A stretch of 12,390 nt of DNA from Clostridia bacterium. Its GTDB lineage: Bacteria; Bacillota; Clostridia; RGIG8785. The notes under the pieces were generated by a model. That model saw only the letters and a program-made list of their open reading frames with translations. It did no database searches and was not told the origin of the DNA. Every line of letters begins with the position of its first letter. Within the stretch, counting starts at the first letter, position 1. The position numbers were made by a program, and so were the translations under genes. The DNA is taken from positions 1-12,390 of the forward strand of contig JAGAUM010000082.1 of the NCBI GenBank assembly GCA_017620795.1. The letters run 5' to 3'. Of this stretch, positions 3,388 to 9,072 are shown piece by piece.

Positions 3388-4641
3388 TTGTCGTCCTATA
3401 GCGAATTGATTAAGAATTTCGAAAAAATCCGTGCCTATATGCGCGAATTTTATGTCTATGGCTTTAAGAGCCGTGAGGAATATGACCAAAAAAGTGCCCG
3501 TTCTTATGACGACGAACGAAGGAGAATTGAGAGCTGGTTAGGGGATTATATGAGTTTCATCCGCACTCCGGAAGGAAAAACGACTTTTATTTCTATTGAT
3601 AGCCGCGTTTCTCACCATAATCCTTTCTACAAAGCCCTTAAAGCCAAAAGCTTCACCGACGGTGACATTACCCTGCACTTTATTCTATTTGATATTCTTC
3701 ACTCTCCAGAGGTGGTTTTATCCTTGCCCGAACTATTGGAGAAACTGGATGAATACTTATCAGAATTTGAACATCCCATGGTCTTTGATGAATCTACGGT
3801 TCGAAAAAAACTAAAAGAATACATTGCCCAAGGTATCATCATCGCCGAAAAAGAAGGCAAAAGGCTGTTTTATCGTCGTGCGGATGATTTGGTTTTGCCC
3901 GATATCACCGATGCGTTGAGTTTTTATTCCGAGATCTCTCCCTGTGGTGTTGTCGGCTCGTTTTTGCTAGACAAGCAGGAACAAAAAAGAGACTACTTCA
4001 GCTTTAAACATCACTATATTACCTCTGCCATAGACAGCAATGTGCTGGCTATGTTATTCCATGCCATGCATCAAAAGTCTGCCGTTACCGTTACTAACCT
4101 AAGCCGTCGTTCCAACGAACCCCGAAAAAATCGTATCATTCCCTTGCGAATTTTCATCAGCGTACAAAGCGGACGACAGCATTTACTTGCCTATCAGCCC
4201 GAGCTCAATACGATCAAATCTTTCCGCATCGACTACCTATCAGATGTGAAAATTGAGGAGCCTTCGCCCTGTTTTGACGAATTACGTGCCAGACTAGATA
4301 ACATGCAAGGGAAAATGTGGGGCGTTACCACGAAACAAAATCGTCATGGAGAGGATCATACTGAACAGGTATCCTTCACCATAAAAGTAACTGAAAACGA
4401 GGAGCATATTGTACAACGTCTGGAGCGAGAGAAAAGAATCGGTCGGATAGAACAGTTAGACGAGAACACTTATCGGTTTACGGCAACGATTTACGATACC
4501 AGTGAAATGATTCCCTGGATTCGCACCTTTATTTGTCGAATCACTGATCTGCACTTTTCTAATCACTCCTTGGAAAATCAGTTTAAAAAGGACATCAAAG
4601 CGATGTATCGAATGTACGGAATCGAGGAGGTGGAAGCATGA
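3388..4641 (+). CDS. WYL domain-containing transcriptional regulator (first of pair)
   Basis: A 417-residue regulator of the WYL family. These proteins combine a DNA-binding winged helix with a WYL domain, a small barrel thought to sense nucleic-acid or nucleotide-like ligands, and a WCX extension. Here the N-terminal 180 residues are helical with a winged-helix-like stretch near 95-165 (LPELLEKL ... STVRKKLKEYIAQGIIIAEKEGKRLFYRR). The WYL core is about 210-290 (HLLAYQPELNTIKSFRIDYL, with the LAY/FR positions of the family), and a WCX-like tail spans 325-410. The start is TTG 3388, chosen because AAGGTGAGG sits 5-7 bases before it; the next in-frame ATG (3439) has no such site and would cut the first helix. 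It overlaps the second WYL gene by four bases (ATGA), so the two are translationally coupled and may act as a heteromer, as PafB and PafC do. Its position suggests control of the RNA-array/rtcB unit downstream; that is inference. Confidence 0.87.
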   Translation: MSSYSELIKNFEKIRAYMREFYVYGFKSREEYDQKSARSYDDERRRIESWLGDYMSFIRTPEGKTTFISIDSRVSHHNPFYKALKAKSFTDGDITLHFILFDILHSPEVVLSLPELLEKLDEYLSEFEHPMVFDESTVRKKLKEYIAQGIIIAEKEGKRLFYRRADDLVLPDITDALSFYSEISPCGVVGSFLLDKQEQKRDYFSFKHHYITSAIDSNVLAMLFHAMHQKSAVTVTNLSRRSNEPRKNRIIPLRIFISVQSGRQHLLAYQPELNTIKSFRIDYLSDVKIEEPSPCFDELRARLDNMQGKMWGVTTKQNRHGEDHTEQVSFTIKVTENEEHIVQRLEREKRIGRIEQLDENTYRFTATIYDTSEMIPWIRTFICRITDLHFSNHSLENQFKKDIKAMYRMYGIEEVEA

Positions 4642-5546
4642 TTTTTAATGAAATTTATTCTGCCTATTACAACACTGTCGCCAAAATTATTTCCAGCATC
4701 CTAAAAGGAGACGGGGACGAAAAAAGCTTGTCTCGCATCGTTTGCGAAAACGCCTTCGGGGAAAGTATCCTCAGCGTACTGCCAGCTCTTAAAAGTCAAA
4801 AATGGCAGTTGATCAAGGCAGACGGTTCAACCCCCATAAAACAGATTCCAACAATGCCGTTGACGTTGGTACAAAAACAATGGTTGAAAGCAATCTCCCT
4901 TGATCCTCGCATGTCGTTGTTCGGCATCACGTTGAATGGTCTGGAGGAAACAGACCCCCTTTTCACTGCAGAAGATTATCTCATTTATGACCAGTATAGC
5001 GATGGAGACCCCTATGAGGATAAACAATACCAAAAGCATTTCCAAACCATTTTGTATGCTTTAAAACACGAAAAAAACTTAAAAATCGAAATGATTAATC
5101 GCAAGGGTCGACTGGTCTATTCCCGCTGTGTTCCCAAACGATTGGAGTATTCTGAAAAGGATGACAAATTCCGCTTGGTGACCTGCGGGTGCCCCTTCAT
5201 CCGCACCATCAATATTGCCCGCATCACCAAATGCAAGCTTTACAACGGTGACACCGAAATTTCGTCCCCTGAACCCGAAAGAAAAACTGAAACACTCACC
5301 CTAAAGATTAGTGACAAGCGAAACACCTTAGAACGGTGCATGCTCCATTTTGCTCATTTTGAAAAGCGTGCCGAAAAGGTAAAGGACCATTATCTTTTGC
5401 ACCTATGCTTTTCTCAGGATGATGAACGGGAGCTGGTCATCCGCGTCCTCTCCTTTGGTCCAACTGTTGAAGTGGTGGCACCAGAAGCCTTTCGAACCAA
5501 AATGATCGAAAAGCTAAAAAGTCAAAAAAGCTGTGAACTTTTATAA
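4638..5546 (+). CDS. WYL domain-containing protein (second of pair)
   Basis: A 302-residue WYL protein. The N-terminal 140 residues are helical and carry no obvious helix-turn-helix, so it may depend on its partner for DNA binding. The WYL domain spans about 145-202 (LKIEMINRKGRLVYSRCVPK, then FRLVTCG and RTINIARITKCKL), with the typical series of strands and the Arg-Ile-x-x-Cys/Ile ending. A WCX-like region fills 215-300. The ATG at 4638 overlaps the TGA of the preceding gene, with GAGGAGGTGG at 4624-4633 as a strong ribosome binding site. The last codons and the stop lie inside the terminator hairpin at 5524-5561. With its partner it is a candidate ligand-responsive regulator of the following RNA-repair unit; the target promoter is not proven by sequence. 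Confidence 0.85.
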   Translation: MIFNEIYSAYYNTVAKIISSILKGDGDEKSLSRIVCENAFGESILSVLPALKSQKWQLIKADGSTPIKQIPTMPLTLVQKQWLKAISLDPRMSLFGITLNGLEETDPLFTAEDYLIYDQYSDGDPYEDKQYQKHFQTILYALKHEKNLKIEMINRKGRLVYSRCVPKRLEYSEKDDKFRLVTCGCPFIRTINIARITKCKLYNGDTEISSPEPERKTETLTLKISDKRNTLERCMLHFAHFEKRAEKVKDHYLLHLCFSQDDERELVIRVLSFGPTVEVVAPEAFRTKMIEKLKSQKSCELL

Positions 5547-5561
5547 GTTCGCAGCTTTTTT
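5524..5561 (+). terminator. Intrinsic terminator overlapping the end of the second WYL gene
   Basis: Long hairpin: GCTGTGAACTT (5530-5540), loop TTAT, AAGTTCGCAGC (5545-5555), one G-T wobble, with six As before and seven Ts after (5556-5562). The left arm encodes the last residues of the WYL protein and the stop codon (5544-5546) begins in the loop. The A and T tracts would allow termination in both directions, but no opposing gene is seen. Confidence 0.92.
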
Positions 5562-5564
5562 TCC

Positions 5565-5593
5565 GTGATAAAGGGAAACATTGGCAGTACAAT
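5565..5593 (+). promoter_or_regulatory. Candidate promoter for the small-RNA array
   Basis: GTGATA (5565-5570), 17-base spacer, TACAAT (5588-5593). A start about seven bases on (near 5600) would fall at the 5' edge of the first RNA (AAAG at 5604). The preceding terminator separates it from the WYL operon. The -35 matches the consensus at four of six positions, so the call is moderate. Confidence 0.5.
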
Positions 5594-5603
5594 GAAATCA
5601 CCA

Positions 5604-5688
5604 AAAGGCTCTTACAGCCACCTTCACCGAATGCCGTCAGGTAATCCTTACGGAGGTCGTGGACCGAAAGGTTTAAAGAAGAGCCTTG
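5604..5688 (+). ncRNA. Y-like small RNA, copy 1 of 6
   Basis: 85 bases. The closing helix pairs AAGGCTCTT (5605-5613) with AAGAGCCTT (5679-5687). It has the features shared by all six copies: AAAG at the 5' edge, C at base 8, RCAGC starting exactly ten bases after the first base (ACAGC, 5614-5618), and CTTG at the 3' edge. Inside are ACCTT/AAGGT (5620-5624/5668-5672) and a hairpin CCGT-C-AGG, loop TAAT, CCT-T-ACGG (5634-5653). It lies just downstream of the candidate promoter, and six bases before copy 2. Calling it Y-like rests on the Ro-like and RtcB neighbours. Confidence 0.78.
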
Positions 5689-5694
5689 TGTATG

Positions 5695-5758
5695 AAAGAT
5701 GCAAGCAGCAGACTCTCGAAATTCCTTGTCAGCGAAGATCTGACCCGCCCGCATCTTG
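5695..5758 (+). ncRNA. Y-like small RNA, copy 2 of 6 (shortest)
   Basis: 64 bases. The closing helix pairs AAGATGC (5696-5702) with GCATCTT (5751-5757). In column 5 the C-G pair of the other copies is T-A here, and column 6 is G-C, so pairing is kept while the bases change. GCAGC (5705-5709) is the RCAGC motif at the fixed offset of ten. One internal hairpin is seen: GTCAG (5728-5732), loop CGAAGAT, CTGAC (5740-5744). Only four bases separate it from copy 3, which suggests processing from a common precursor. Confidence 0.75.
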
Positions 5759-5762
5759 AGCA

Positions 5763-5849
5763 AAAGACACCTACAGCAGAATTTCAGAACTATGAGCTCG
5801 GTCTTTAAGGGCAGAGCTGGTAATCGCGGTGTATTCCGTGGGTGTCTTG
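5763..5849 (+). ncRNA. Y-like small RNA, copy 3 of 6
   Basis: 87 bases. The closing helix is AAGACACC (5764-5771) with GGTGTCTT (5841-5848). ACAGC is at 5773-5777, offset ten. Internal hairpins: AGCTC (5795-5799) with GAGCT (5814-5818), and CGCGG with CCGTG (5826-5830/5836-5840) stacked directly on the closing helix. GAGCTGGTAAT within it is reminiscent of a tRNA D arm, but no T arm is present. Confidence 0.78.
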
Positions 5850-5859
5850 CACTTACTGC

Positions 5860-5905
5860 TGGCAACTGTCCAGTCAGCAATTGTAGCTGACATGAACGGT
5901 TGGCA
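5860..5905 (+). other. Long imperfect hairpin between RNA copies 3 and 4
   Basis: Arms 5860-5878 and 5886-5905 around the loop AATTGTA. The core GTCAGC/GCTGAC is perfect; outward come one bulged A, one C-A mismatch, one T-G wobble and one G-G mismatch, giving about 17 pairs in all. It lacks the AAAG, RCAGC and CTTG signals. It ends two bases before copy 4, so it may be a processing stem for a double-strand-specific RNase or a separate RNA. GTTGGC on its right arm (5900-5904 and neighbours) could also pair with GCCAAC at the start of copy 4. Confidence 0.5.
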
Positions 5906-5907
5906 TT

Positions 5908-6015
5908 AAAGACGCCAACAGCAAACCTCTGTGCATTAGCTTCAAAGGGAAGCATCTGCCTTATACGCAGAGGAGTACGGGTTCGAATCCCGTATGCAGT
6001 AAAAAGCGCGTCTTG
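5908..6015 (+). ncRNA. Y-like small RNA, copy 4 of 6, with tRNA-like domain
   Basis: 108 bases, the longest copy. The closing helix pairs AAGACGC (5909-5915) with GCGTCTT (6008-6014); ACAGC is at 5918-5922, offset ten. The body contains a tRNA-like cloverleaf (5932-5998, listed separately). An alternative helix, CCTCTGTG (5926-5933) with CGCAGAGG (5966-5973), would enclose the D-arm hairpin but destroy the anticodon-like arm and the acceptor-like stem, so two folds are possible. Known bacterial YrlA RNAs also join a Ro-binding stem to a tRNA-like module; that parallel supports a Y RNA role. Confidence 0.82.
5932..5998 (+). other. tRNA-like cloverleaf inside RNA copy 4
   Basis: Acceptor-like stem TGCAT/ATGCA (5932-5936/5994-5998), linker TA, D-like arm GCTT/AAGC with loop CAAAGGG (5939-5953), one linker A, anticodon-like arm TCTGC/GCAGA with seven-base loop CTTATAC (5955-5971), variable loop GGAGT, T arm ACGGG/CCCGT with loop TTCGAAT (5977-5993). 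Lengths of linker, anticodon loop, variable loop and T arm are those of a class I tRNA, and the T at position 33 is kept; the loop would read TAT as anticodon. Against a working tRNA: acceptor stem of five pairs (the next two positions are T-T and G-G), a seven-base D loop without A14, no CCA, and closure by the outer helix. Confidence 0.75.
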
Positions 6016-6020
6016 TGTAC

Positions 6021-6043
6021 TGTCAAGGGAGCGTCCCTTGACA
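6021..6043 (+). other. Perfect ten-pair hairpin between RNA copies 4 and 5
   Basis: TGTCAAGGGA (6021-6030), loop GCG, TCCCTTGACA (6034-6043), no mismatch. It begins five bases after copy 4. No T tract follows, so it is not a standard terminator. It could be a processing stem, an RNA stabiliser, or an operator-type palindrome at the DNA level. Confidence 0.6.
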
Positions 6044-6044
6044 T

Positions 6045-6116
6045 AGAGAATGGTATCAATGAAAACTTACAGAAGCTCATTGCTTAAGGGTCTCCCTTAA
6101 AATCTTACCATTCTCT
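6045..6116 (+). ncRNA. Structured RNA with a three-way junction, between copies 4 and 5
   Basis: P1 is eleven perfect pairs, AGAGAATGGTA (6045-6055) with TACCATTCTCT (6106-6116). P2 is CAATGA/TCATTG (6057-6062/6077-6082) with a 14-base loop that contains CTTACAG, a string also present in copies 1 and 5. P3 is TTAAGGG/CCCTTAA (6084-6090/6094-6100) with loop TCT. It lacks the AAAG...CTTG closing helix, so it is not a seventh copy. TTTT follows P1. It may be a distinct RNA of the same unit. Confidence 0.62.
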
Positions 6117-6127
6117 TTTCATCCACC

Positions 6128-6215
6128 AAAGACACTTACAGCAAAGCCTCTATCCGTAACACGAAGACAAAAGTACTCGCACTTGGCGAGTATCGTGAAA
6201 ATGAACAGTGTCTTG
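6128..6215 (+). ncRNA. Y-like small RNA, copy 5 of 6
   Basis: 88 bases. The closing helix pairs AAGACACT (6129-6136) with AGTGTCTT (6207-6214). ACAGC is at 6138-6142, offset ten. An internal arm is formed by TACTCGC (6174-6180), loop ACTTG, GCGAGTA (6186-6192), continued outward by CACGA (6160-6164) with TCGTG (6193-6197) across a nine-base bulge on one side. Seven bases separate it from copy 6. Confidence 0.8.
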
Positions 6216-6222
6216 ACCCCCT

Positions 6223-6307
6223 AAAGGCACAGACAGCCAACATTCTAGGACCTACTTCTGTTAAGGAAGATGATTTCCCCAAACGGAAATTCCAACCATG
6301 TGCCTTG
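6223..6307 (+). ncRNA. Y-like small RNA, copy 6 of 6
   Basis: 85 bases. The closing helix pairs AAGGCACA (6224-6231) with TGTGCCTT (6299-6306); ACAGC is at 6233-6237, offset ten. Like copy 1 it has G-C in helix column 4 where copies 2-5 have A-T. Internal hairpins: ATTTCC (6273-6278), loop CCAAAC, GGAAAT (6285-6290), and a weak CTTC/GAAG (6255-6258/6266-6269) with a seven-base loop. It ends 18 bases before the ribosome binding site of the Ro-like gene, and no terminator lies between. Confidence 0.78.
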
Positions 6308-6339
6308 TAATTTTATCAAAATAAAAAGGAGTGAGCTTC

Positions 6340-7806
6340 ATGCTACAGTATTTAAAAGAAGAATCCAACACCACCCTGACCGAAAACGGTGCCACAACCT
6401 TAAAAACCACCTTTTCAGACTGCTTAGACTTGTTTGCCACCATCGGCGCCCTTCGTCATCGCAAAGACGAGGAAATCATTTTACGGTTCTCCCGCGCCTT
6501 TGCTGAGAATAGCGACCTGGCTATGAAGCTCCTGTTTTTCGCACGGGATATCCGCGGTGGATTGGGCGAACGGAGAGTGTTTAAAACCATCCTGCAATGG
6601 CTGGCAATCAATGCACCCCAAAGCCTTCGCAAAAACCTTGCCCACATTGCCGATTACGGGCGTTTTGACGATTTGCTGGTTTTAATCGGCACCCCGTTAG
6701 AGGACGAGGTCTTTGCTCTGTTCCAACTGCAACTGACCCAAGACCTCAAGGCGTTAGACGCAGGAGAAGAAGTGTCTTTGCTTGCCAAGTGGCTCCCCTC
6801 TATTAACGCCTCCAACTCCCAAACGAGACAGTTAGGAAAGAAAATCGCTCGGTTTTTGGGTATGGACGATGCCACTTATCGTAAAACCTTAGTTCGCTTG
6901 CGTGCCCAAATACGCATCATTGAAAACAATCTTCGAACAAAAGACTATACATTTGACTATGCAAAACAACCTTCCAAAGCCATGTTCAAATATCGCAGCG
7001 CTTTTATCCGTAACGATGAGGAGCGATATAACGAGTTTTTAAACCAGGTTTCTACGGGCGAAGCGTCTCTTCACACAAGCGCACTTACCCCTTATGAAAT
7101 CATTACTCCCTTTTTCAAGAAACAGGTAAGTGACGAGGAGCGTAAAGCCATCGACACCACCTGGAATGCCTTGGAAGGAGATATGGGGACTGAAAATGCT
7201 CTTGCGGTTATTGACGGATCGGGATCCATGTATGGCTGTCGCGACCCCATTCCAGCAACGGTCGCCCTTTCTCTTGGCATTTTCTTCGCCGAACGAAACC
7301 AAGGTGCCTTTAAAAACCACTTTATCACTTTTTCGGAAAACCCACAGTTGGTTGAAATCAAAGGCGACGATATCTTGAGTAAAATCCAATATTGCGTCCG
7401 TTTTGACGAAGTTGCCAACACCAATCTCCAAAAAGTGTTTGAACTGATTCTCTCTACTGCCCAAAAGCACCAAGTTCCGCAAGAAGAACTTCCTAAGCGG
7501 TTGTATATCATTTCCGACATGGAGTTTGACTGTTGTACCACAGACGCTTCTTTGACCAACTTTACATATGCCAAGAAGCTTTTTGAGCAGGCGGGATATC
7601 AACTACCCGAAGTAGTCTTTTGGAATGTAAATAGCAGAAACAGACAACAACCGGTCACCAAAAACGAGCAAGGCGTTGCCCTGGTATCGGGTTGCACCCC
7701 ACAGATATTCAGTCAGGTGCAAAACAACACCCTTACTGCACTAACACCTTACGAGTTTATGCTGGATGTCCTGCAAGGCGAGCGCTACGAGAAAATCGTA
7801 GCATAA
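6340..7806 (+). CDS. DUF2828-family TROVE-like helical repeat plus vWA protein (Ro60-like)
   Basis: A 488-residue protein with the two-part plan of Ro60/Rsr, the ring-shaped protein that holds Y RNAs and damaged RNAs. Residues 1-280 are all-helical repeats (for example LLFFARDIRGGLGERRVF, AHIADYGRFDDLLVLIG). Residues 285-470 form a von Willebrand A domain with an intact MIDAS: Asp292-x-Ser294-x-Ser296 in VIDGSGSM, Thr361 in VANTNLQ, Asp393 in ISDMEFD. The strings SDMEFD, GYQLPEVVFWNVNSR and GVALVSG are typical of DUF2828, not of classical TROVE proteins. The start is ATG 6340, because AAGGAG (6326-6331) lies eight bases before it; an in-frame GTG at 6331 would sit inside that site. It follows the small-RNA array and precedes rtcB. 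RNA binding by this protein is inferred from the architecture and the neighbours. Confidence 0.85.
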   Translation: MLQYLKEESNTTLTENGATTLKTTFSDCLDLFATIGALRHRKDEEIILRFSRAFAENSDLAMKLLFFARDIRGGLGERRVFKTILQWLAINAPQSLRKNLAHIADYGRFDDLLVLIGTPLEDEVFALFQLQLTQDLKALDAGEEVSLLAKWLPSINASNSQTRQLGKKIARFLGMDDATYRKTLVRLRAQIRIIENNLRTKDYTFDYAKQPSKAMFKYRSAFIRNDEERYNEFLNQVSTGEASLHTSALTPYEIITPFFKKQVSDEERKAIDTTWNALEGDMGTENALAVIDGSGSMYGCRDPIPATVALSLGIFFAERNQGAFKNHFITFSENPQLVEIKGDDILSKIQYCVRFDEVANTNLQKVFELILSTAQKHQVPQEELPKRLYIISDMEFDCCTTDASLTNFTYAKKLFEQAGYQLPEVVFWNVNSRNRQQPVTKNEQGVALVSGCTPQIFSQVQNNTLTALTPYEFMLDVLQGERYEKIVA

Positions 7807-7863: not shown

Positions 7864-9072
7864 ATGATAGAAATAAAAGGAACTTACAACACAGCGATTT
7901 GCTATGCCAATACTCTGGAAGAAACTGCCGTCGCACAAATAAAAGCCGTTTGCAATGAATCGGCATTTCAAAACGAAAAAATCCGTATTATGCCTGATGT
8001 CCACGCCGGAAAAGGCTGCACCATCGGCACGACTATGACAGTTACTGACAAAGTCGTGCCCAATATGGTGGGGGTAGATATCGGTTGTGGAATGTACACC
8101 ATTTATTTGGGAAAAGCAGAGATTGACTTAGACGCCTTTGATCAAGCTGCACATTTAATTCCTTGCGGTAGAGATGTATGGGAAGGAATACAGGCGCGAT
8201 TTGATTTAACCCGTCTGCGTTGTTACCGCAACTTAAAGCATACTCGCCGTCTGGAAAAAAGCATCGGGACTTTAGGCGGCGGAAACCATTTTATCGAAAT
8301 TGATAGTAACTCTCGGGAAGAAAAGTATCTCGTTATCCATTCAGGAAGCCGCAACTTAGGAACACAAGTCGCAGAGTATTACCAGGGTCTGGCAATTGAT
8401 TTGAATTTGGGCAAAGAAGAATATTTTAAACAACGTGAAGAAATCATCCGCACTTACAAGGCTCAAGACAGACGTCAAGAAATTCAACCGACACTGATTG
8501 CCTTGGAAAAAGAATTTGCCGCCAAAGAAACAACTGTTCCGCCTGCCCTGTGTTATCTGTATGGAACTTTTATGGAAGACTATTTACACGATGTGAACAT
8601 TTGCCAACAGTTCGCGCAGCGTAATCGAGAAAAAATAGCAGAAATCCTGCTGGAAAGAACGGGGCTAACCGCTATATCCTCTTTTCAAACCATCCACAAT
8701 TATATTGATGTAAAAGAGCGAATTCTTCGCAAAGGTGCAGTTTCCGCAAAAGCTGGCGAAAAGCTGTTAATTCCCATCAATATGCGAGATGGGAGCTTAA
8801 TTTGTATCGGTAAGGGGAATCCGGATTGGAATGTTTCCGCACCCCACGGGGCAGGACGCTTAATGTCCCGTTCTGCCGCTTTTGAAACCCTCACCTTGGA
8901 CGAATACAAACAACAAATGAGCGGCATTTACTCCACTTGTGTAAATTCTTCCACCTTGGATGAGTCGCCCATGGCATATAAAAGCATGGACGAAATTGTT
9001 GCAAATATCACCCCCACCGCAGAAATCCTTGAACACATCAAACCGATTTATAACTTTAAAGCGGCAGAATAA
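7864..9072 (+). CDS. rtcB: RtcB family RNA-splicing ligase
   Basis: GTP- and Mn-dependent RNA ligase that joins a 2',3'-cyclic phosphate or 3'-phosphate end to a 5'-OH end, through a guanylated histidine. At 402 residues it matches the length of E. coli RtcB. The catalytic set is complete: MPDVHAGKGC (43-52), VDIGCG with Asp72 and Cys75 as metal ligands, GGGNHFIEI with Asn141-His142, VIHSGSRNLG with His159, HNYID with His278, RKGAVSAK (289-296), and SAPHGAGRLMSR with His328 as the expected guanylation site. GAGG at 7853-7856 precedes the ATG. It lies 57 bases after the Ro-like gene and 20 before the next gene, so one operon is likely. No rtcA, archease or prfH is present in the window. Likely role: repair of cleaved tRNA or joining of RNAs presented by the Ro-like protein, or of the array RNAs themselves; the substrate is inference. 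Confidence 0.96.
   Translation: MIEIKGTYNTAICYANTLEETAVAQIKAVCNESAFQNEKIRIMPDVHAGKGCTIGTTMTVTDKVVPNMVGVDIGCGMYTIYLGKAEIDLDAFDQAAHLIPCGRDVWEGIQARFDLTRLRCYRNLKHTRRLEKSIGTLGGGNHFIEIDSNSREEKYLVIHSGSRNLGTQVAEYYQGLAIDLNLGKEEYFKQREEIIRTYKAQDRRQEIQPTLIALEKEFAAKETTVPPALCYLYGTFMEDYLHDVNICQQFAQRNREKIAEILLERTGLTAISSFQTIHNYIDVKERILRKGAVSAKAGEKLLIPINMRDGSLICIGKGNPDWNVSAPHGAGRLMSRSAAFETLTLDEYKQQMSGIYSTCVNSSTLDESPMAYKSMDEIVANITPTAEILEHIKPIYNFKAAE

Follow-up and report, generated by a model that had tools for sequence, protein, structure and literature searches.

The window analysed here, a stretch of 12,390 nt from a Clostridia bacterium (contig JAGAUM010000082.1), carries an array of six units at 5604..6307, which share a paired end structure (the handle) and enclose different bodies, and which lie directly upstream of a gene for a Ro-like protein. 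That these units represent functional RNA is strongly supported by sequence comparison, namely by covariation across 81 loci and by conservation beside DUF2828 genes, in line with what an earlier sequence-only reading had concluded from the covariation within this one locus. Two of the bodies resemble a tRNA and a piece of 23S rRNA. We favor, with a confidence that stays somewhat below an even chance, an RNA array of the Y RNA kind, in which bodies held by a Ro-bound handle act as decoys against nucleases that cut tRNAs and rRNA, and in which the RNA ligase RtcB, encoded next to the array, re-joins the cut RNAs.

Six units with a covarying handle

Units were defined as AAAG, seven pairs and CTTG with a length of 50-130 nt, and both strands of the whole window were scanned. 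All six units found on the plus strand lie inside the array, at exactly the positions proposed by the sequence-only reading and with lengths of 64-108 nt (Table 1), which is far above the chance expectation; when the intergenic stretch of 784 nt was shuffled 2000 times with its dinucleotides preserved, a mean of 0.048 units and never more than 2 were found. The minus strand of the window gives three scattered matches, which contain G-U pairs. The compensated changes in helix columns 4-6 are present as described before, and the bodies, which had been called unrelated, each form a singleton cluster. All six units fold better than the mean of their shuffles (z -1.8 to -4.5), although unit 2 does so only weakly. 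A further feature, which had escaped the sequence-only reading, is the motif R-C-A-G-C-(A/C) directly 3' of the 5' helix strand in all six units.

Between the last unit and the start codon (ATG) of the Ro-like gene there are 32 nt. As a terminator-like hairpin precedes the array, the latter may be transcribed on its own; this hairpin was seen by folding and is not among the results of the terminator scanner, and the promoter scan gave nothing above chance. Two of the spacers hold stable hairpins without a handle. The spacer 5850..5907 (plus strand, z -3.8) contains TCAGCAA and is perhaps a degenerate unit, and the spacer 6016..6127 (plus strand), located between units 4 and 5, forms very stable hairpins (z -7.0). 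A second copy was found neither of this spacer nor of the array in the organism's own assembly, which is 63% complete.

Table 1 Features of the array and of its surroundings in the window
Feature	Position	Strand	Remarks
WYL-domain regulator gene	3388..4641	+	PF13280, E 3e-6; WYL models also match
Second WYL/WCX-type regulator gene	4638..5546	+	WCX, E 7e-6
Terminator-like hairpin and T run	5525..5560	+	16-bp stem; -22.2 kcal/mol for 5525-5575; end of regulator gene
Unit 1	5604..5688 (85 nt)	+	handle helix AAGGCTC/GAGCCTT, 9 bp in fold, and ACAGC; z -3.2
Unit 2	5695..5758 (64 nt)	+	handle and GCAGC; body like 23S rRNA helix 70/71; z -1.8
23S rRNA mimic in unit 2	5717..5748	+	29 of 32 bases as in large-subunit rRNA (LSU) 1879-1910 of L244; sense strand; TTCCT at 5722-5726
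Unit 3	5763..5849 (87 nt)	+	handle of 8 bp (minimum-energy fold) or 11 bp (centroid) and ACAGC; z -3.7
Unit 4	5908..6015 (108 nt)	+	handle and ACAGCAA; body a tRNA cloverleaf; z -4.5
tRNA-like domain of unit 4	5930..6001	+	TAT at the anticodon position; lacks CCA and the outer acceptor pairs
Unit 5	6128..6215 (88 nt)	+	handle and ACAGCAA; z -2.2
Unit 6	6223..6307 (85 nt)	+	handle and ACAGCCA; z -2.5
Ro-like protein gene	6340..7806	+	DUF2828 and DUF7788 with the metal-site motif DGSGSM; possible alternative start GTG at 6331
RtcB RNA ligase gene	7864..9072	+	E 1.3e-54

For the comparison with other loci, 80 of 390 chromosomal relatives were used, mainly from Clostridia (Oscillospiraceae, Lachnospiraceae) and some from Synergistaceae. 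Including the window, 75 of the 81 loci contain units, 231 in total, versus 3 in the downstream control. This is the opposite of a lack of similar units upstream of homologous loci, which had been named as the outcome that would count against the prediction. A carrying locus has one to eight units, and ten of the 81 loci have at least six, so that the cassette of the window is only in part as unusual as had been supposed. The bodies, in turn, are highly diverse, as the 231 fall into 204 clusters, 185 of which are singletons. An array like that of the window is also present on a Subdoligranulum plasmid.

Within the class, 17 of 391 genomes have a DUF2828 match. Same-strand handle motifs less than 3 kb apart occur in nine genomes, all of them among these 17 (from a list read by hand), and single handle motifs are scattered in many genomes without a DUF2828 gene. 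Upstream stretches taken from 11 of the 17 genomes all contain units (27 in total), and eight of them have a unit with the T-loop motif. This set omits the genome of the window, two genomes whose loci are identical to L002 and L064, two partial matches and a distant one, and since ten of the 11 genomes had already shown the handle motif, it tests the bodies rather than the presence of the handle.

The covariation was analysed with a detector that is blind to pairing, as it takes only the 5' motif and the first CTTG (237 cases, 218 of them distinct). Among the 104 column pairs, the corrected G statistic ranks five helix pairs at the top, those of columns 4, 6, 5, 8 and 9 with their partners; column 7 is mostly C-G (178 of 218). 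At least two types of Watson-Crick pairs within one and the same locus are found for column 4 in 40 of 73 loci and for columns 5 and 6 in 40 of 74 loci each. The purine/pyrimidine classes of columns 4-6 are nearly fixed, as would be expected if a protein reads the groove of the helix.

The consensus of the handle is AAAGRYRC-NN-ACAGCAA/GYRYCTTG. When 7-mers were ranked by strand bias, its word ACAGCAA came first among 16,367 in the 80 genome loci (285 versus 71 sites). In the 52 distinct viral loci it came fourth among 16,382 (220 versus 32), behind the T-loop word and two A-rich words. A six-pair helix flanks 231 of the 285 sites in the genomes, compared to a null of 89, and 136 of the 220 sites in the viruses, compared to a null of 73, whereas the minus strand shows no excess, neither in the genomes (26 of 71, null 28) nor in the viruses (9 of 32, null 8).

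Bodies resembling tRNA and 23S rRNA

Unit 4 contains a complete tRNA-like cloverleaf according to ARAGORN, and the Rfam tRNA model matches it with 48.5 bits. Most of the acceptor stem is replaced by the handle, and compared to the 7-bp acceptor stem of a functional tRNA gene two outer pairs fail. The same architecture is common in the relatives. In an alignment of 33 units from 30 loci, RNAalifold predicts the handle and the D, anticodon and T arms but no acceptor stem, and 15 of the 22 pairs show double changes. An anticodon loop of 7 nt is present in 29 of these units, U33 in 23 and a purine at position 37 in 26, and 17 different triplets occupy the anticodon position. By ARAGORN or the T motif, 55 of the 231 units in 46 of the 75 carrying loci are tRNA-like; the T motif alone is found in 51 units, versus about one per shuffled set.

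A model of such tRNA-like units (R1), to which unit 4 as a member of the training set scores 77 bits, matches with at least 45 bits upstream of the gene in 59 of 81 loci by hand count; 30 of the 59 loci provided training sequences, and a downstream tRNA-like match in L069 was excluded from the count. Upstream R1 matches are also present in four of the six loci without units (L033, L035, L036 and L051). Of the two others, L023 has only 252 nt of upstream sequence, and L079 shows neither units nor an R1 match. When the array DNA was compared with phages, 37 records matched; in each of the 15 listed the match is to unit 4, and in 14 of these it falls on an annotated tRNA. A permissive Rfam search of the array and six loci gave tRNA, tRNA-Sec below the cut-off and families at chance level.

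The body of unit 2 first matched unannotated plasmid DNA, and the matching site on a Vescimonas plasmid turned out to be a ribosomal RNA operon, to whose 23S rRNA the unit is identical at 29 of 32 positions from LSU 1879. In E. coli 23S rRNA, the equivalent of the match starts at position 1933. When all 231 bodies were compared to the rRNA of the Vescimonas operon, 14 sense matches but no antisense and no shuffled match reached a score of at least 28. With a Paenibacillus stretch added, there were 16 sense matches and one antisense match at this score and 11 versus none at a score of 30; one sense match to L245 (from unit 4 of L032) lies outside the rRNA genes. The matches of the 176 bodies without the T motif pile up at LSU 1888 (10 loci) and at LSU 904 and 943 (8 loci), compared to up to 3 loci in the antisense control and 3-5 in the shuffles. 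Another pile-up at LSU 358 (7 loci) was rejected as a probable look-alike of the T arm.

The mimic of helix 70/71 occurs in nine loci. It has the native order in the window and in L003, L004 and L047 and is circularly permuted in five, with the hairpin first and GAAAT later (L007, L010, L028 and L056 with 30-34 nt, and L002). GAAATT is present in just 15 of the 231 units. As both parts are kept in the permuted order, it may be the fold that counts. Weaker cases without GAAAT are found in L022 and L032. The mimic units of the window, L003 and L004 share letters of the 5' handle and may be orthologous. None of the 27 further units from the 11 additional genomes contains the mimic. The helix 70/71 probe also matched once outside an array, at position 9901 of L018, and, weakly, in five viral stretches (scores 26-28).

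A second rRNA-like region, judged from sequence matches, is likely LSU about 900-945, which is represented in 8 loci; a wider probe of this region also matches the minus strand, with 9 versus 3 matches at a score of 26. This region corresponds to helix 39. Bodies in L002, L012, L013 and L047 resemble LSU 900-945 (CTGAATNGG...CCNTATCAA) and appear to contain a covarying stem. Among the six bodies of the window, those of units 2 and 4 were assigned as mimics, and none of those of units 1, 3, 5 and 6.

A Ro-like protein and a layout shared with Y RNA loci

The gene following the array had been taken for a Ro-like gene, and this holds for the fold but not for the sequence. The structure model of the protein predicts a helical ring and a vWA domain, and its best structural matches are Ro60 structures (Xenopus Ro 1YVR, Deinococcus Rsr 2NVO and the Ro60 of a Thermus phage, 9L5Y). 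Like the Ro60/TROVE proteins, it has a predicted helical part and a vWA domain with the DGSGSM motif. In contrast to them, it matches the Pfam families DUF2828 and DUF7788 instead of TROVE (PF05731), which was detected neither in this protein nor in its own genome nor in any of 32 family members. PDB chains gave no sequence match up to E 1. Of 291 genomes of the class, 4 contain TROVE itself. According to the model, the neighbor is thus of the Ro type by fold but not a TROVE protein by sequence; it belongs to the phrog_850 family of RNA-binding proteins (E 6.9e-129).

The rtcB gene that had been read downstream of the array is indeed there, and 50 of 67 eligible relatives have it downstream on the same strand. 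A PADLOC match of RtcB to RT_UG31 was taken as chance. In the 66 loci whose flank was long enough, relatives of the first WYL-domain gene were found upstream in 35, in the same orientation, and those of the second WYL/WCX gene upstream in 36. Farther upstream, at 1324-2357, the window contains a gene for a Gfo/Idh-type oxidoreductase (1324-1881, Pfam match) and then an overlapping frame (1749-2357), which to judge from the sequence may be the continuation of this gene after a frameshift or an assembly error.

The role as Y RNAs, suggested by the sequence-only reading, is partly supported. In its favor are the pairing of the 5' and 3' ends in a conserved stem, the presence of a member with a tRNA-like domain (unit 4), the Ro-like gene and rtcB; the sequence of the handle and the topology of the tRNA-like domain, however, are by eye unlike those of TROVE-linked RNAs in this class, and the YrlA model of Rfam does not match. 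The tRNA-like fold of YrlA is permuted and lacks an anticodon arm, whereas the order in unit 4 and its relatives is D, anticodon and T arm. D, T and acceptor arms are named for YrlA in PMC8394870. The comparison with Rfam, which had been proposed as a check, gave no match to YrlA (RF02553), with limits of E ≤ 1 for the window and E ≤ 10 for the array; it was also absent from the own genome and, at the gathering cut-off, from 12 loci. Rfam YrlA matches in 133 of 199 genomes of the phylum, none of them over the cut-off, were judged to be ordinary tRNAs.

TROVE loci nevertheless share much with the window. In the four TROVE genomes, the gene follows, as judged by eye, a tandem of two or three RNA-like segments, and in three Clostridia TROVE loci (L090-L092) three such segments with a different, common handle were seen, with WYL relatives upstream as in the window. 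Tandem small-RNA segments next to a gene with the Ro fold, paired ends and a tRNA-like member are also features of the Y RNAs at Rsr loci, and in Salmonella, rtcB belongs to the rsr-yrlBA-rtcBA operon. The handle of L090-L092, read by eye as GRGCAGTGCAG...AGAGNTACTTC with TCTCCC-like ends, differs from the consensus described above; the motif AAAGRYRC..CAGC is absent from these three loci, and L093 has one degenerate site. The tRNA-like domain of the TROVE arrays is permuted by eye, with T arm, closed acceptor and D arm, whereas that of the window has the complete cloverleaf in the usual order, including an anticodon arm, but without a proper acceptor stem. Unlike TROVE-locus Y RNAs, the present arrays have up to 8 units, some of which copy 23S rRNA, and they lack a match to RF02553. 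The same genetic layout is thus realized with two protein families and two handles. The predicted RNAs of the window, compared at the level of sequence, are like Y RNAs in outline but are not YrlA and constitute a distinct variant. Among the papers listed in the literature searches, none deals in its title or displayed abstract with DUF2828-linked RNA arrays or with Y RNAs mimicking rRNA, though both may have been described before.

The protein family is not restricted to chromosomes. Of 50,697 phage records, 682 carry a relative, which is variously annotated as hypothetical, RNA-binding, vWFA or Ro-like protein, and among the carriers are phages of the laboratory hosts M. smegmatis mc2 155 and B. 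subtilis BEST7003. These phages with Ro-like/phrog_850 genes share with the window the protein family and, in many cases, ACAGCAA handle motifs, but the sequences of the handle helix are different. By eye, ACAGCAA with complementary flanking letters was found near the gene in FADO, LMTA-57, Whirlwind and wV8, whereas Aeh1 has no such site on the strand of the gene within 4 kb. The viral stretch L211 contains a full-length match to R1 (71.7 bits). In several metagenomic phages, tRNA-like genes contain the handle as a closed hairpin within their anticodon region, which is the reverse of the topology of unit 4. At ACAGCAA, such an inverted helix alone is present at 29 of 220 viral sites (null 10), at none of 32 on the minus strand and at 2 of 285 genome sites (null 8). 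The total of 64 inverted handles in phages, 23 of which have a downstream T-loop motif, does not exceed mononucleotide shuffles (8-18 per 20 loci), and the same detector gives 73 in the 80 genome loci.

Phage tRNA-like genes with a handle hairpin inserted near or in the anticodon arm were seen in L157 (4230-4480), L164, L175 and L229. By eye, the two halves flanking the insert of the tRNA-Asn-like gene of L157 look like a whole tRNA, and a spliced insert is conceivable. In Listeria phage LMTA-57 (L233), a stretch of 9.5 kb combines the DUF2828 gene, tRNA genes and a gene annotated as tRNA-splicing ligase, and thus resembles the bacterial gene set.

Possible functions of the array

The six units are predicted to be separate small RNAs, presumably separate transcripts, whose covarying helix and RCAGC handle would be bound by the adjoining Ro-like protein. 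The variable bodies would then likely serve as decoys that spare tRNAs and ribosomal RNA from being cut by nucleases, so that the array would present many baits on one handle. RtcB would likely rejoin the cut RNAs, and the WYL proteins may regulate the locus. Among the explanations considered, this decoy or competitor function appears the most likely one because a single platform protein and a single handle are combined with bodies resembling tRNAs or a site of 23S rRNA, with RtcB adjoining. Since mimicry of tRNA and 23S rRNA was not part of the sequence-only reading, the likely mechanism has changed accordingly. The fast turnover of the bodies fits a changing set of attackers. A competitor role has been suggested for the tRNA-like domain of YrlA in Salmonella (PMC7790460). 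Moreover, the mimicked sites include a known class of toxin targets, tRNA anticodon arms and 23S helix/loop 70, and in the latter UUCCU is the cut site of two MazF toxins according to PMC5408214. The mimic of the window contains UUCCU, but it is changed or split in other mimics. Here the site also lies in a predicted small RNA, the cutting of which is putative.

A wider version of the decoy reading, which is conceivable but which we consider doubtful, would see a general decoy library in bacteria and phages. Ro-like rings and the ACAGCAA handle would be combined with exchangeable tRNA and 23S baits, each directed to a toxin or defence nuclease, and an arms race would drive the turnover of bodies whose mimicry is kept by the fold, which would account for tRNA as well as rRNA modules being found both in normal and in circularly permuted order.

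It is also possible, although we regard it as rather unlikely, that the RNAs are tethers or gates as in the Deinococcus RYPER, where the handle would hold the Ro-like ring while the bodies recruit partners or substrates (PNPase, rRNA, tRNA modification enzymes) and thereby widen degradation or repair. According to PMC8394870, a bacterial Y RNA tethers PNPase to Rsr, and enzymes that act on tRNAs also modify YrlA. The location of the Ro-like gene and rtcB next to the array agrees with such a function, and bodies consisting of rRNA pieces would suit the handling of rRNA. However, there is no PNPase among the eight open reading frames of the window that were scanned, and with 204 clusters among 231 the bodies are much more variable than tethering to a single constant partner would require.

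Less probable still is a tripwire, in which mimic bodies cut on the Ro-like protein signal to the WYL regulators, the operon is turned on and RtcB resets the system. As reported in PMC7790460, rsr-yrlBA-rtcBA of Salmonella is turned on via RtcR by tRNA fragments with cyclic phosphate, and the two WYL genes before the array as well as the WYL relatives before the TROVE genes of L090-L092 would fit such a circuit. On the other hand, of 66 eligible loci just 36 have WYL relatives upstream, the 80 viral stretches have none, and YrlA fragments reportedly were not detected in Salmonella.

We consider it quite improbable that the array is a cis-acting leader, that is a single structured 5' region which controls the Ro-like and rtcB genes and of which the units are the stems. 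This would be suggested by the position of the array just upstream on the same strand, with a median of 38 nt from the last unit to the start of the gene in loci with units. It is at odds with the number of units (1 to 8) and their irregular spacing, with the units located about 1.3-1.8 kb upstream in L034, L061 and L077, with handle motifs downstream of the gene in the phages Whirlwind and wV8, and with the many members that are whole tRNA mimics. Finally, decayed tRNA genes or a functionless chance repeat, which the ARAGORN tRNA in unit 4 and the Rfam tRNAs in other arrays might bring to mind, can practically be dismissed in view of the handle covariation obtained with the pairing-blind detector, the compensated changes in the D, T and anticodon arms, the strand bias of ACAGCAA and the presence of units in 75 of 81 loci.

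The locus described here makes one idea about the purpose of bacterial Ro proteins and Y RNAs directly testable. Some bodies reveal which RNAs are imitated, namely tRNAs with many anticodon triplets and the 23S helix 70/71 region. The ACAGCAA handle can serve as a key to search for such RNAs beside the relatives of the gene in the 682 phage records. If the bodies are decoys, they would represent a counter of bacteria and phages to RNA-cutting toxins that can be read from the sequence and that predicts the attacked sites.

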